Shown here in pieces: positions 56,161-63,270 of a DNA stretch of 64,000 nt. How positions within the stretch are numbered: position 1 is the first letter of the stretch; each line of letters begins with the position of its first letter. The stretch is from Opitutus sp. Lineage in GTDB: Bacteria > Verrucomicrobiota > Verrucomicrobiia > Opitutales > Opitutaceae. The notes beneath the pieces were generated by a model. That model ran no database searches and was not told the origin of the DNA. It saw only the letters and a program-made list of their open reading frames with translations. The stretch lies in assembly GCA_024998815.1 (NCBI GenBank), contig JACEUQ010000001.1:1612001-1676000 (forward strand). Direction: 5' to 3'. Both the position numbers and the translations under genes were made by a program.

Positions 56161-57969
56161 AGAGCCTGTCCCAAATTTCCGGATTTTTAAAAAGTGCGCA
56201 GAGGTCCATTGGGATTGCGGGCGAACGAGGTGGCACGAATCACCCCAGCGACGTTAAACGGCGGCCCGAATCGATTTTTCCCGCCCCCAAGCGCGGTAGT
56301 AAGGTACGGCAAAGCCGGGGCGAGCCCCAGGGTTATTCACATTTTTGCCGGAAAATTGAATTAAGCGGCCAGCGGAAGTGTTATTTCCTCGGCAAGGATT
56401 CGTGACACCAGCCAGAGGTTGTGACCGAGTACACTCCAACCCACCGAACGGTAGCGGTTGGCAAACCCTTTACAGCGCAAGCGTCCGCCGAGGCGTTGTT
56501 TGAGGATCGCAATGCGCGCTTCGGTCGCCGAACGGCGCCGCTGCAATTGGGCGAAGCGTTTTTCGCTCAAACGCTCCTTGAGCGCGTGCGGATCACGCGG
56601 GCATACCGCATCGTAAACGTCTTGTTGCTTGAGCATTGCGGAAGTTTTTTTGGTGGCGAAGCCGCGGTCGGTGCCGACCGCGCTAATCGGCGCACTCAGG
56701 TCAAAGCGGTTCTGCCGCGCCAGGCTTTCCTCGAGTTGGCACCATTCTGCCGGAGCCGCGCCCTGGTAGAGTTGCCAGTCGGTGATTAAACCGGAGAGCG
56801 CCTCGCTCAACAGCAACGAGTTGCCAAACTCGACTTGGCTCCCTGCTTTGCCGCGAACCAGTACGTTCACATCAAGTTCATGCACGCTGAGGATCTTTTG
56901 GTCGTTGGGCACCGGGCGTCCGCCGATGATGCGCTCGTGGGCCTGCTTGATGACGGCGGGCAGTTGGCCGAGCATAGCGTCGATGCGGGTGGTTATCCGC
57001 TTGGTTTGGCGTTGGCTGTAATGGGTTTGGCTATACTTCTGCGCCAACAGGTCGCGGTGGCGGCGGGCATGTTCTCCGATCGTGCGTAACAGCGTCTTCA
57101 TCTTGCGCAGGATCTGTTTACGCGCGCGCTTGGCGTCGTTGCGGCGGCCTGCGTGGGTCATTGACATGCACAACTTGTTCATCTGCTTGGCAAAGCACTC
57201 CGGCTCTTCAGGCATACGGTGGAGCAGTCCAGCGCGGCGGATTAAAATCATGGCCTTGAGCAAAGTCTTGGACACATCACGCAACAGCACCCAGTCCACC
57301 GGGAAGTGGATGTTGGTCTCCAAGCACGTGCCGTCGATGAGGCAAACATCCATGTCCAGCGGCGCGCTCAACCCGAGTTCAGTGGCGCGATCCTTCTCGC
57401 CGCACATCTCCACCAACACTTGCCCCATCCAGCGCACCTGTTCGGCGGTGAAAAACTTCGAGGCCCGCTCCAGCACACTTTTGGACGCCCCCTTGATTCC
57501 CTCAAGCGTGCGAACACCGCAAAAATCCGCCAGTAAATCACTTGAGGCAATGCTACGGGAAAGCTCGCGAAAGGATATGTTGCCCAAATGCACCCGCAAC
57601 ACTTCAAAGCGTAACGCTTTGAGCGCAAACTCCATACGCTGGCGTAGTTGTGCGACACTGGCTTGGCCTGCCCCCGCCTTGGCAAAGTCCATCGCCATCG
57701 TCTCCAAGTGGCTGCCACGCAACAACGCGTCGAGTCCTTCCAATTGCTGGCGAAACTCGGCGTAATCTTTATTGGCACCGACTGGCGTTAGCGCCGGACG
57801 CAACCAGCGTTGCAGGGCAATGGCCGAGGTGGCGGATACGGGTTTTGACTTCATGGCCGATTATAGCGGCTTTTTTTTGACCAAAACCAGGGAATTACCC
57901 CTCTTTAGGCATCATTAAACTTATGCTAATAGTTCACTGCTAGGTTTTTATGCTTTCGGGACAGGCTCT
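56161..57969 (-). mobile_element. IS (ISNCY/IS1182-like) inserted in cassette 4 (1809 bp)
   Basis: Terminal inverted repeats AGAGCCTGTCCC / GGGACAGGCTCT and a 4-bp direct repeat AAAT (56157-56160 and 57970-57973). One transposase gene. The insertion separates the LexA-N-like gene from the pre-attC block and attC of the same cassette. Confidence 0.88.
56361..57854 (-). CDS. DDE transposase (ISNCY/IS1182-like)
   Basis: A 497-residue protein. D in VCLIDGTCLETN, D in VGTDRGFATKK and E in RSATEARIAILKQRLGG are the probable catalytic residues. The central helical region contains a Lys/Arg-rich segment. The C-terminus (GWSVLGHNLWLVSRIL) is like IS5-superfamily enzymes. Family name uncertain. Confidence 0.88.
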   Translation of the reverse strand: MKSKPVSATSAIALQRWLRPALTPVGANKDYAEFRQQLEGLDALLRGSHLETMAMDFAKAGAGQASVAQLRQRMEFALKALRFEVLRVHLGNISFRELSRSIASSDLLADFCGVRTLEGIKGASKSVLERASKFFTAEQVRWMGQVLVEMCGEKDRATELGLSAPLDMDVCLIDGTCLETNIHFPVDWVLLRDVSKTLLKAMILIRRAGLLHRMPEEPECFAKQMNKLCMSMTHAGRRNDAKRARKQILRKMKTLLRTIGEHARRHRDLLAQKYSQTHYSQRQTKRITTRIDAMLGQLPAVIKQAHERIIGGRPVPNDQKILSVHELDVNVLVRGKAGSQVEFGNSLLLSEALSGLITDWQLYQGAAPAEWCQLEESLARQNRFDLSAPISAVGTDRGFATKKTSAMLKQQDVYDAVCPRDPHALKERLSEKRFAQLQRRRSATEARIAILKQRLGGRLRCKGFANRYRSVGWSVLGHNLWLVSRILAEEITLPLAA

Positions 57970-58372: not shown

Positions 58373-58382
58373 TCAGTACGGA

Positions 58383-58414
58383 TTGGGTTTCTGGCTCCAG
58401 AGACATTCATACGC
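58383..58414 (-). repeat. conserved pre-attC block (cassette 5)
   Basis: One-base variant (AGACATTC) of the block shared by five cassettes, located between the antitoxin stop and attC-like site 5. Confidence 0.75.
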
Positions 58415-58419
58415 TTTGA

Positions 58420-59089: not shown

Positions 59090-59098
59090 TCAGTACTG

Positions 59099-59149
59099 CT
59101 TGGGTTTCTGGCTCCAGAGATATTCATACGCAATGGTTCGGCTCAGTGG
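59099..59149 (-). repeat. pre-attC block plus duplicated R''-like box (cassette 6)
   Basis: The shared block (59099-59131) is followed to the right by a second GTTCGGCTCAGT (59136-59147), the text that normally marks R''. The cassette 3' end therefore has two R''-like boxes about 50 bp apart. Confidence 0.75.
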
Positions 59150-59526: not shown

Positions 59527-59629
59527 GCCGAACGTTTAAGCTCAGCGATGAACGTGCTTGGCGCGGAGCGTGCTGCTCGGAGCACGATCCGTGACAAGCA
59601 TGTTCATTCGCTGTAGCGCTTGGTTCGGC
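59527..59629 (-). other. attC-like site 7
   Basis: R'' at 59629-59623, R' at 59533-59527; arms GATGAAC/GTTCATTC. The yoeB stop is 11 bp from R''. Confidence 0.85.
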
Positions 59630-59639
59630 TCTGTGGTTT

Positions 59640-59897
59640 TCATTCATAATGGTAACGAACCTGAGCGATCTTAATGACATCACCTTCGACTCTATATACC
59701 AATCGGTGTTCATCTGTAATACGCCTAGACCAATATCCACTTAAAGCATGCTTCAAAGGTTCAGGCTTACCGATGCCTTCATATGGATTTCTGAAAATAT
59801 CCTTCAGCAAATCATTAATCTTCTTCAGTATTTTCTTATCGAACTGTTGCCAGTAAACGTAATCGTCCCACCCACGAGATGAAAACTGAATATTCAT
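59640..59897 (-). CDS. yoeB: cassette 7: YoeB-type ribosome-dependent RNase toxin
   Basis: An 85-residue RelE-superfamily toxin. WDDYVYWQQFDKKILKKINDLLKDIFRNPYEGIGKPEPLKH and RRITDEHRLVYRVEGD with terminal RYHYE match YoeB, including the conserved His/Tyr end. It cleaves mRNA in the ribosomal A site. It overlaps the antitoxin gene by 4 bp. Confidence 0.95.
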   Translation of the reverse strand: MNIQFSSRGWDDYVYWQQFDKKILKKINDLLKDIFRNPYEGIGKPEPLKHALSGYWSRRITDEHRLVYRVEGDVIKIAQVRYHYE

Positions 59898-60154
59898 TTC
59901 GTGAGATCATCGATCGACTTCGTAATACCACCACTACCTTTTAATTCCGAAATTGAATCAAGAAGGCGGCGAGCATTCGCAGGAGAACGAAGTAAATAGG
60001 CAGTCTCCTGAAGTGATTCGTAATCCTCAAGTGACATCATAACAACGGCTTGATCTCGATTACGAGTGATAATCACCGGGTCATGATCCACACAAACATG
60101 ATCCATTGTAGACGCGAGGCTTTCCCGTGCAGCGGTATAAGTAATTGCTTTCAT
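59894..60154 (-). CDS. yefM: cassette 7: YefM-type antitoxin
   Basis: An 86-residue Phd/YefM antitoxin: ITYTAARESLASTMDHVCVDHDPVIITRNRDQAVVMMSLEDYESL is the DNA-binding N-terminal domain. The C-terminus wraps the toxin. It starts 47 bp from R'. Confidence 0.95.
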   Translation of the reverse strand: MKAITYTAARESLASTMDHVCVDHDPVIITRNRDQAVVMMSLEDYESLQETAYLLRSPANARRLLDSISELKGSGGITKSIDDLTK

Positions 60155-60200
60155 ATGGACGTTAAACTGTCCATGCGGCAGCGGATGTCAAGTTTTCTTT

Positions 60201-60303
60201 GCCGAACGTTTAAGCTCAGCGATGAACTGCGTTGGCGCGGAGCGTGCTGCTCGGAGCACGATCCGTGACAATGCAGTTCATTCGCTGTAGCGCTTGGTTG
60301 GGC
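60201..60303 (-). other. attC-like site 8 with variant R'' (GCCCAAC)
   Basis: R'' is GCCCAAC (60303-60297), R' is GTTCGGC (60207-60201). GCCCAAC fits the canonical RYYYAAC exactly. The variant matches the TTGGGC at the 5' end of the same cassette. Confidence 0.88.
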
Positions 60304-60313
60304 TCAGTGGTTT

Positions 60314-60985
60314 TCATCCGAAAACGATAATATCAGTAATGGTGTGAGCAATCATTAACACCGTGATGTTGGGGTACAAAACATAAAAAATTGATGAGAA
60401 AACACCAACCGCAAACGTAGGAACCAAATTCTGAATTCCGCCTTCCCAATGAATAACAGAAAACAGAAAAGATGAAACAATCACGAAAAGAAAACTAGCG
60501 CTAAAGCCAAAACCAAAAAAACGACGAACAAATGACCTAAAAAAAAGCTCCTCTACAACTCCAGCCGTAAGTGAAAACCACAGTAAAACAAAAAATCCGG
60601 CCAAACCACCGCGCGGAATTAGTGAGCCATAATTAAACCCATTTGCTAAATAATTAACACTGAAAACCAACTTCGACCAAGCCTGAACACCCACATAAAC
60701 GTGATAAAACAGAAAGATGGCAGCAGAACAAAAAAGCAAATACTGAATCCACTGAGAGACTGAACACGGCAATGAAAATCCTAGATCCTTAAAATTACCA
60801 CCGCGCTTTGAAAAAACATACAAAGTCACCAAAGGAACCAATAACCAAGTAAATAAATCCACAGACCAATATAAAACCGGCGAATCCACCAGCAATGGAT
60901 TGTAAAAACCGTTCAATAAGAGCAAAGAAAATAAGGGTAGAAATAAGCCCAACCAGAAACCAAAATTAAATCGAAGGGTTTCCAT
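60314..60985 (-). CDS. cassette 8: CPBP-family intramembrane metalloprotease
   Basis: A 223-residue membrane protein with about six to seven hydrophobic helices. Motif 1 EELFFRSFVRR (the EExxxR of CPBP/CAAX proteases), motif 2 FSVIHWEGG (FxxxH) and motif 3 IAHTITD supply the metal ligands. Relatives process bacteriocins, confer self-immunity or join defence systems; the role here is unknown. The start (METLRFNFGF) is only 7 bp from R', so it needs an external promoter. AT-rich. Confidence 0.88.
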   Translation of the reverse strand: METLRFNFGFWLGLFLPLFSLLLLNGFYNPLLVDSPVLYWSVDLFTWLLVPLVTLYVFSKRGGNFKDLGFSLPCSVSQWIQYLLFCSAAIFLFYHVYVGVQAWSKLVFSVNYLANGFNYGSLIPRGGLAGFFVLLWFSLTAGVVEELFFRSFVRRFFGFGFSASFLFVIVSSFLFSVIHWEGGIQNLVPTFAVGVFSSIFYVLYPNITVLMIAHTITDIIVFG

Positions 60986-60991
60986 ATTTTT

Positions 60992-61094
60992 GCCCAACGT
61001 TTAAGCTCAGCGACGAACGTGCTTGGCGCGGAGCGTGCTGCTCGGAGCACGATCCGTGACAAGCACGTTCGTTCGCTGTAGCGCCTGGTTCGGC
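60992..61094 (-). other. attC-like site 9 with variant R' (GTTGGGC)
   Basis: R'' GCCGAAC (61094-61088), R' GTTGGGC (60998-60992). GTTGGGC fits canonical GTTRRRY. The six bases TTGGGC would belong to cassette 8. Arms GACGAACGTGCTTG/CAAGCACGTTCGTTC are fully paired. Confidence 0.88.
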
Positions 61095-61103
61095 TCTGTA
61101 CTG

Positions 61104-61136
61104 ATTGGATTTCTGGCTCCAGAGATATTCATACGC
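61104..61136 (-). repeat. conserved pre-attC block (cassette 9)
   Basis: Copy of the shared block, directly after the vapC stop codon at 61140-61142. Confidence 0.75.
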
Positions 61137-61139
61137 TAA

Positions 61140-61388
61140 TCACGACATCACTCGGCTCATCGGATAGTGCTGATCGATAAAAGTAAAATCGCGGTCATTC
61201 TCAAGTAAGCAAACGCCATGCTGAATAACCGTGGCGGCAATTAAACAATCTATCGAATTCCTGATAGTAATACCCTCTTTCCTCAAATTCCGATATATTG
61301 TCGCACCTAATTCAAAAGTAGATTGGTCTGATTCTAAATAAATCAGATTACCAAATTGCTGCTTGGTCATCACATACTGCTTTTCCTC
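61140..61388 (-). pseudogene. vapC: cassette 9: vapC toxin, 3' part (split by ISL3 element)
   Basis: C-terminal half of a PIN-domain toxin with active-site D in NSIDCLIAATVI and D in LLENDRDF. Removing the IS and one 8-bp duplication joins VLQGIREEK to QYVMTKQQFGN in frame, restoring a 132-residue VapC. Confidence 0.92.
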
Positions 61389-62701
61389 GGTTCTTCCCGT
61401 TTTGTTGTGGGTTCGGGCATAAAAGCAGCTAAAAAGTAAAGATGAGCATAAGCGCACATGAACATTACCGGCGGTTGCTGTTGCTGCCGGAACCGTGGGA
61501 AGTAACCAAAGTGGAGGAAGACATTCTCGGACTAAACGTGACGGTCTGGTTACGATGGCCAGACGGGGCCAAGGTGCCGTGCCCAGTGTGCGGTCAGTTG
61601 ATGCCTATTTACGACCGAATGAAGGAGCGGAGTTGGCGTCACCGTGATGTGATGCAATATCGACTCGAACTGCGGTGCGCGGTGCCCCGCTGCGATTGCG
61701 AGGAGCATGGTGTTAAAACGATGCACGTGCCGTGGGCCGAACCAGGCTCGCGGTTCACCTCGCTTTTTGAAAGCTTTGCCGTGGCCGTGATCGCCTCTAG
61801 CCGATCGCTAAGCCAAGCCGCCGAGTTGCTGGGACTTCATTGGGATAGTGTACAACGTATAATCGATCAGGCTGTTGAGCGAGGCTTGGCGCGGCGAAAC
61901 CTCGACGGCATCACCCGAGTTGGCTTAGACGAAAAGAGTTTTTTGCGCGGTCAAAGCTACGTTTCATTGATGACCGATCTCACCGGTCGGCGGGTACTGG
62001 ACGTGGTTCCAGGCCGGGATACAGGGAGTGGGTTAAAGCTTTGGGCATCATTATCAAAGGAGCAAATTGACGGGATTGAAGCCGTCGCGATGGACATGGG
62101 TGCATCCTTCATCGCCGCCACCCACCAGGCCGCGCCCAACGCTGACATCGTTCACGACCGCTTTCATGTTTCAAAGCCTATGAACGAGGCGGTCGATCAT
62201 ACCCGCCGGGATGAGGCCGCTGAACTCGCTGCCAAAGGCGATGACATCTTAAAACGCACTCGCTTTCTTTGGCTGCATGGCATCGTTCCTGATGACCGCA
62301 AAGAGCACTTCGAGGCGCTGCTGGAGTCCAATCTTCGTACGGCCAAGGCATGGGCTTATAAAGAGCAGCTGGTCGAGTTTTGGGGACAACCCAACGCCGA
62401 TGCGGGTAATACTTTCTTCCAGCTGTGGTATCGCTCGGTTATGAGTAGCCGCCTGCCCAGAGTCAAAAAAGTAGCAAAGTCACTAAAAGCCCATCTGGCC
62501 GGATTACTGACTTACTTTAAGCACCGTATTTCGAATGCACTCACCGAGGGTTTTAATTCAAAAATCCAAGCAATTAAAGCCGATGCTCGTGGCTTCCGTA
62601 AGTTCGAAAACTATCGCACCCGTATTCTTTTCTTTTGTGGTAAACTCGACCTCGAGCCTAATTTCCCCCCAGCCCTAACCCACAGTATTCCGTGAAGAAC
62701 C
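61389..62701 (+). mobile_element. ISL3-family insertion sequence in vapC (1313 bp)
   Basis: Imperfect inverted repeats start GGTTCTTC and end GAAGAACC, and TGTGGGTT matches within. It is flanked by the 8-bp direct repeat TTTTCCTC (61381-61388 and 62702-62709), the duplication length of ISL3 elements. Confidence 0.95.
61442..62695 (+). CDS. ISL3-family transposase
   Basis: A 417-residue transposase. The zinc finger is at the N-terminus (CPVCGQ, then CAVPRCDC). An HTH follows (SLSQAAELLGLHWDSVQRIID). Catalytic D is in VGLDEKSFLRG, D in DIVHDRFHVSKPMNEAVD, and E in SNALTEGFNSKIQAIK. Apparently intact. It reads opposite to the host cassette. Confidence 0.95.
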   Translation: MSISAHEHYRRLLLLPEPWEVTKVEEDILGLNVTVWLRWPDGAKVPCPVCGQLMPIYDRMKERSWRHRDVMQYRLELRCAVPRCDCEEHGVKTMHVPWAEPGSRFTSLFESFAVAVIASSRSLSQAAELLGLHWDSVQRIIDQAVERGLARRNLDGITRVGLDEKSFLRGQSYVSLMTDLTGRRVLDVVPGRDTGSGLKLWASLSKEQIDGIEAVAMDMGASFIAATHQAAPNADIVHDRFHVSKPMNEAVDHTRRDEAAELAAKGDDILKRTRFLWLHGIVPDDRKEHFEALLESNLRTAKAWAYKEQLVEFWGQPNADAGNTFFQLWYRSVMSSRLPRVKKVAKSLKAHLAGLLTYFKHRISNALTEGFNSKIQAIKADARGFRKFENYRTRILFFCGKLDLEPNFPPALTHSIP

Positions 62702-62859
62702 TTTTCCTCTCGAATACCTTGAAGCACCTCGGTCATAATAAAACCGCATAAACACAAATCAGCACGAGCCTGAATCAACTCAACCAATTTGTCGGTATGA
62801 GGAGTATTTCGATTACGAAGAAAATCTATCCAAACAGTCGAATCAACAAGGACCTTCAC
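62702..62859 (-). pseudogene. vapC: cassette 9: vapC toxin, 5' part
   Basis: N-terminal half MKVLVDSTVWIDFLRN... with D6 and E44 (TEVLQG) of the PIN active site, cut after EEK by the ISL3 insertion. Its ATG overlaps the vapB stop by 4 bp. Confidence 0.92.
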
Positions 62860-63059
62860 GCTACGCGCCCTTTCCGCATCGCATTCAAATCACCATCCCA
62901 GTTTACGGCGCCGCGAAGATTCAACAGTCCGAGCTGCGACTCATGACGCACTAACTGCGTAAGCGCATAATGAATAAGCTCTTTTTGAGTCTTCAGACCA
63001 GTCAATTTTAAGGCTTCACCAACCAACCGATCATCGAGAACTATGTTTGTTCGTTTCAT
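62856..63059 (-). CDS. vapB: cassette 9: VapB-type antitoxin
   Basis: A 67-residue protein MKRTNIVLDDRLVGEALKLTGLKTQKELIHYALTQLV, a ribbon-helix-helix-type VapB of the VapB-2TM (RHH) group, with a C-terminal toxin-binding tail (LRGAVNWDGDLNAMR). It remains intact although its toxin gene is interrupted. It lies 49 bp from R'. Confidence 0.92.
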   Translation of the reverse strand: MKRTNIVLDDRLVGEALKLTGLKTQKELIHYALTQLVRHESQLGLLNLRGAVNWDGDLNAMRKGRVA

Positions 63060-63107
63060 GGCATACACACGAAACCAAATCGGCGTGTGTAGGCAAGTTT
63101 TATTTTT

Positions 63108-63210
63108 GCCGAACGTTTAAGCTCAGCGATGAACTGCGTTGGCGCAGAGCGTGCTGCTCGGAGCACGATCTGTGACAATGCAGTTCATTCGCTGTAGCGC
63201 CTGGTTCGGC
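63108..63210 (-). other. attC-like site 10
   Basis: R'' at 63210-63204, R' at 63114-63108. Stem GCGCAGA/TCTGTGA is a compensated variant of GCGCGGA/TCCGTGA, and GAACTGCGTTG faces CAATGCAGTTC. Confidence 0.85.
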
Positions 63211-63220
63211 TGTATAGTTT

Positions 63221-63270
63221 TTCGGTTTCTGGGTCCAGAGGTATTCATGCGCTATAAAGGCTGGTTCGGC
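63221..63270 (-). repeat. pre-attC block plus R''-like box (cassette 10)
   Basis: Block variant (TTTCTGGGTCCAGAGGTATT) at 63221-63252, then a second GTTCGGC at 63264-63270 that falls inside the last codons of the lipoprotein gene (encoding VPNQPL). Confidence 0.7.

Follow-up and report, generated by a model that had tools for sequence, protein, structure and literature searches.

The stretch analysed here (the window, 64,000 nucleotides of an Opitutus sp. genome, G000:C1:1612001-1676000) takes in, at its right end, a portion of a chromosomal integron whose array, on the minus strand, occupies G000:C1:1666377-1713698 and comprises 63 attC sites of one family and one orientation, 62 of them 103 bp and one 99 bp long; the 46 distinct sequences among them have a mean column identity of 92%. 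One cassette of this array carries a gene for a CPBP protein and is flanked by two integrated attC sites and by two further cassettes. The downstream neighbour carries toxin-antitoxin genes, the YoeB and phd_fam models exceeding their cut-offs and the narrower YefM model staying under its own; its 5' start is TTCGGC and its R'' is GCCGAAC. The upstream neighbour carries a VapC-like gene (VapC match of 55.6 bits, under the cut-off of 80) and an inserted ISL3-family element (transposase 321.2 bits, cut-off 180), and the same cassette without this element (795 bp) is present elsewhere in the array. Relative to this uninterrupted copy the parts flanking the element share 9 overlapping bases (GAGGAAAAG) that resemble a target duplication. 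On the gene 3'-end side the attC is adjoined by a sequence of roughly 40 bases (plus strand TTTCTGGCTCCAGAGAYATTCAT; variants occur) that is common to more than ten otherwise unlike cassettes. A plasmid search with the array part of the window returned 219 records, and among the 20 listed 19 concerned toxin-antitoxin genes and one touched no annotated feature.

Features of the CPBP cassette and its surroundings (window positions)
Feature	Position	Strand	Remarks
CPBP gene cassette	60207..60997	-	791 bp; begins with TTGGGC and ends at the terminal G of its own attC
5' hexamer TTGGGC of the CPBP cassette	60992..60997	-	also the final hexamer of R' in the attC integrated upstream
R'' box GCCCAAC of the CPBP cassette's own attC	60297..60303	-	complementary to the cassette's 5' hexamer
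Integrated attC downstream of the CPBP gene	60201..60303	-	array site 56 (site 8 of the first-pass annotation)
Integrated attC upstream of the CPBP gene	60992..61094	-	array site 55 (site 9 of the first-pass annotation)
CPBP (Rce1-like, PF02517) protein gene	60314..60985	-	223 aa; ATG 12 bases inside the cassette
Upstream neighbour cassette, VapC-like gene	60998..63113	-	ISL3-family element inserted at about 61389-62700
Downstream neighbour cassette, Phd/YefM-type antitoxin and YoeB-type toxin genes	59533..60206	-	
TTTCTGGCTCCAGAGAYATTCAT-type stretch	58375-58417, 59091-59133, 61095-61137, 63211-63253		

Read on the minus strand, the upstream attC combines R'' GCCGAAC (61094-61088) with R' GTTGGGC (60998-60992), and the downstream attC combines R'' GCCCAAC (60303-60297) with R' GTTCGGC (60207-60201), the terminal hexamer TTCGGC of the latter being part of the next cassette. 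Both integrated sites are mismatched at box base 4. The first-pass annotation had described each site as internally mismatched and the two variant boxes as matching each other across the cassette body, and had set the cassette limits at 60207 and 60997; direct reading of the sequence shows both statements to be exact, as TTGGGC starts from 60997 and the terminal G is 60207. The CPBP cassette body recurs with 694 of 694 bases the same in two further cassettes of the array. In a search of 56 genomes (the array of Verrucomicrobia bacterium IMCC26134, L026, not among them) the CPBP protein had high-identity matches solely in its own genome; since, besides the three copies of the array, the search yielded no more than two weak matches (E about 5e-6), it is uninformative on the box pair in relatives.

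The three copies of the CPBP cassette share the same body and the same attC up to the G and always start with TTGGGC. The three attCs upstream of them all have R'' GCCGAAC and differ from one another at 6, 8 and 10 positions, and the hexamers downstream of the copies are TTCGGC from other cassettes. By themselves the two CPBP boxes show only that the putative exchange lay 5' of hexamer base 3. A closer bracket comes from a comparison of 15 pairs of copied cassettes, with c40/c52 left out (89% alike; 19 differences separate their own attCs and 15 the upstream ones). As far as the G, the cassette's own attC was free of differences in 11 of the 15 pairs and differed by one or two bases in the remaining four, whereas the upstream attCs differed at 3 to 26 positions; the hexamer was the same in 14 pairs, c11/c29 differing at one base. 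Hexamer and cassette are thus directly seen to be inherited together across contexts. Among the copies the upstream attC difference nearest to the junction is at -3 (pairs with c34), followed by -4 and -5, and copies agree from +1, the first base at which hexamers of different cassettes diverge being +3. Since upstream differences extend to -3 and the cassettes agree from +1, the exchange appears to lie between -3 and +3 around G^TT, that is, within five bonds with G^TT in the middle, unless the change at -3 arose after insertion. The crossover point after the G of G^TTGGGC proposed in the first-pass annotation thus falls inside the bracket, which does not fix a single bond. Passages of PMC3518468 and PMC8876359 place the exchange between G and TT.

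These copies also bear on the possibility that homologous recombination between similar attC repeats moved the cassettes, in which case neither a site-specific exchange nor a circle would be needed. Recombination among attCs is plausible at 92% identity, and rearrangement of the region is evident from the cassette copies and IS insertions. Homologous crossovers would, however, be expected anywhere in the about 100 bp of an attC, whereas in the 15 pairs the differences are concentrated in the upstream attCs, the cassettes' own attCs being the same or nearly so, and the hexamer travels with the gene behind it. The comparison of copied cassettes therefore disfavours this explanation, which we regard as very improbable.

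Over the whole array, in 62 consecutive site pairs, the hexamer following the G was compared with the R'' of the next site (the same cassette) and with the R'' of its own site. In 47 pairs it agreed with both, which makes them uninformative between the two readings, in 11 with the cassette only, in one with the site only, and in three with neither. Cassette-wise agreement thus amounts to 58/62, whereas 200,000 shuffles average 43.55 and never exceed 54. Site-wise agreement (48/62, shuffle mean 43.54, P about 0.02) is slightly raised, from which we infer that neighbouring cassettes sometimes carry the same variant, an example being sites 35-38. Copied cassettes in the array deprive the pairs of independence, and the attCs adjoining the three CPBP copies supply six of the 11 cassette-only pairs.

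The four pairs that are not cassette-matched belong to c49, c11, c52 and c53. In c11 the hexamer is TTCGGA and in its copy c29 TTCGGC, and the two bodies agree to 99.76% over 422 bases; this one-base difference between copies points to a change after copying. The exception c49 spans 7.7 kb and holds other mobile elements; it contains an ORF that by eye resembles a tyrosine recombinase, other ORFs, and a transposase ORF that is also present in the window at 56361-57854. The diverged attC at site 52 is common to c52 and c53. The first cassette, which lies outside the 62 pairs, has a hexamer without the C that is present in c60, its interrupted copy. The transposase just mentioned is ISNCY-like, with a model score of 198.9 bits (under the cut-off of 325), and measures 497 aa; its two copies in the array (window 56361-57854 and L008:2348-3841) lie one inside cassette c60 and the other in the 7.7-kb gap.

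To extend the comparison to other genomes we used a covariance model of the attC (R1), which found sites in 19 of 56 genomes, our own included. Ten other genomes or records (L016, L026, L072 and seven further genomes, which may be close relatives of these three) contributed loci with 211 sites, of which 17 were unusable, and 172 testable pairs. Agreement was cassette-wise in 151 and site-wise in 61 (both in 56, cassette only in 95, site only in 5, neither in 16). Within-locus shuffles (5,000) gave a mean of about 64 for either reading, with maxima of 84 cassette-wise and 83 site-wise, so that only the cassette-wise count departs from chance. If distinct discordant combinations are counted once per locus, 72 favour the cassette and 5 the site. 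The box pattern and its generality are thus observed directly. Of the 21 pairs that are not cassette-matched, 16 are off by a single base.

The first-pass annotation had derived the pattern from a former circular state of the cassette, with a single attC, and had called it hard to explain otherwise. The discordant pairs support that reading at 11 to 1 in the array itself and at 95 to 5 in other genomes; it also fits the occurrence of three CPBP copies with the same hexamer in three contexts together with an integron integrase gene, and the remark about other explanations was fair. The annotation had asked whether variant hexamers always match the R'' of their own cassette and not that of their site, and had named matches within a site alone as contrary evidence; such site-only matches do occur (1/62 here and 5/172 elsewhere). 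Later mutation at one end would explain these few pairs, and since about a third of the pairs in other genomes match site-wise anyway (background 0.35), five site-only cases among 21 mismatches need no special cause. The site-only matches are also what could be cited in favour of a repair guided by the attC hairpin, in which one box of an integrated site would serve as the template for the other. Such repair predicts matching within sites, yet in the other genomes site-wise agreement is no better than chance, and we give this explanation even less credence than homologous recombination. Independent point mutations agreeing by chance across the CPBP gene might seem adequate for one cassette, as only a single box position differs and one agreement alone is weak evidence, but cassette-wise agreement exceeds every shuffle both here and elsewhere, leaving chance with a negligible probability.

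The CPBP gene thus almost certainly resides in an ordinary cassette of a chromosomal integron, whose box pattern would have been produced by recombination by the integrase, IntI, at G^TT via a circle. The free circle would carry one complete attC with complementary outer boxes (R'' GCCCAAC, R' GTTGGGC). After a cut by IntI in the bottom strand of the folded attC, at G^TT in R', the cassette would be inserted into attI or a further attC. Opening of the circle at this cut would make TTGGGC the 5' end of the cassette, fused to the G of the upstream attC, and the cassette's own R'' would then be paired with the hexamer of the next cassette. As an integrated attC is in this way a hybrid of two cassettes, box variants would agree across the cassette body and not within the site. 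Integrase activity in the Opitutus strain, the exact bond and the circle itself are what we infer here.

An intI gene is seen directly at the start of the array, beyond the window. It gives a TIGR02249 match at 1715052-1715990 on the plus strand with 416-418 bits (cut-off 265); the ORF (L009:14434-15996) encodes 520 aa, residues 207-519 of which make up the match, and the narrower integrase model NF011946 reaches 328 bits against a cut-off of 435. In 14 control genomes all TIGR02249 matches were below the cut-off (other tyrosine recombinases) and none above it. The gene reads away from the cassettes, which lie on the minus strand from 1714055, with a putative attI in between; the first cassette junction, at 1714055, reads AACG^TTCGGA. 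The nearest named relatives of IntI in genome_contigs (L010-L015; best 80 of 139) come from MAGs that bear the labels Opitutaceae, Verrucomicrobia and, once, Akkermansia, with an identity of 80% in the Opitutaceae MAG L010. IntI has about 200 extra N-terminal residues ahead of the TIGR02249 match. The six best relatives (L010-L015) align from query residues 1-21 on, and most others start at about 140-250, with L086 at 47 and a few near 320 (best 80 of 139). This N-terminal part has no Pfam match, and the best hit of the N-terminal 200 aa against solved structures, an outer membrane porin with an E-value of 0.045, is taken as chance.

The bottom strand of the attC is predicted to fold more stably than the top strand in all 63 sites (46 distinct sequences); for the two sites flanking the CPBP gene the predicted ssDNA folds have -40 and -36.7 kcal/mol on the plus (bottom) strand versus -34.6 and -26.5 kcal/mol on the top strand. 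The circular and the integrated form of the attC differ in 15 cassettes, and the circular form is predicted to be more stable in 13 of these and less stable in two (c49, c53). For the CPBP attC the predicted values are -40.3 kcal/mol with 7/7 box pairs in the circle versus -36.7 kcal/mol with 6/7 in the integrated form. The greater stability of the circular form mostly follows from the box match and is therefore not independent evidence.

By the ACID definition (PMC2674596, 2009) a cassette begins at the first T of R', ends with the G of the R' that follows, and owns the attC of its circular form; the CPBP cassette has the same limits and the same attC assignment. Cassettes bounded by GTTRRRY, and a closed-circular form, are likewise described in PMC3053210. 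As the cassette is already so defined in print, the finding is correct but ordinary: it adds a new array, not a new mechanism, and the box pattern is an expected consequence of known integron recombination. The usual box of the present array, GTTCGGC, differs from the quoted consensus GTTRRRY in that its base 4 is C. Base 4 is C in 53/62 hexamers of the array and a purine in 9/62 (the CPBP cassettes included), and it is C in 85/172 hexamers of the other genomes; we take GTTRRRY as the consensus that these papers quote and do not treat it as a defining feature of a cassette. A literature word search for GTTCGGC together with attC gave no integron title among the matches listed, and novelty is not claimed. 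The array of IMCC26134 (CP011265, L026) resembles the one described here: its attC sites score up to 109.1 bits with R1, a relative of IntI (53% identity over residues 213-518) lies beside it, and 13 of 13 tested pairs are cassette-matched.

With 234 cassette pairs (62 + 172) the comparison demonstrates quantitatively that it is in its circular and not in its integrated form that the attC makes a coherent unit, which suggests that annotators rebuild the attC from the two ends of a cassette before scoring box complementarity. A further reading, which we consider rather doubtful, is that end agreement records the last circular state of a cassette and that compensating pairs of end variants would mark changes fixed in that state. 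In the array the two ends lie hundreds of bases apart and are free to drift separately, so that the share of cassettes with mismatched ends would measure turnover; if this reading were true, the shares of 4/62 here and 21/172 elsewhere would gauge the turnover of the arrays.

Two solitary attC sites of the same family are found on G000:C2, far from the array (1369446-1369548 and 937674-937776). For the former (L121:7447-7549) a matching hexamer, which would have pointed to insertion at a secondary site, was looked for upstream, and none was present within 1.5 kb. Within the array, cassettes duplicated or triplicated at 99-100% identity in differing contexts comprise c3/c55, c4/c48, c6/c15/c56, c8/c33, c11/c29, c17/c41, c18/c35, c19/c34/c58, c20/c30, c22/c51 and c27/c54; these many near-identical copies point to recent copying within the array. 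Some cassettes end in the whole body of another (c16 with c4, c5 with c39 and c26 with c32; positions 202-645 of c16 equal c4) and look like fusions through attC loss. Half attC sites lie inside the twin cassettes c17 and c41, at 1702748-1702710 and 1689896-1689858.
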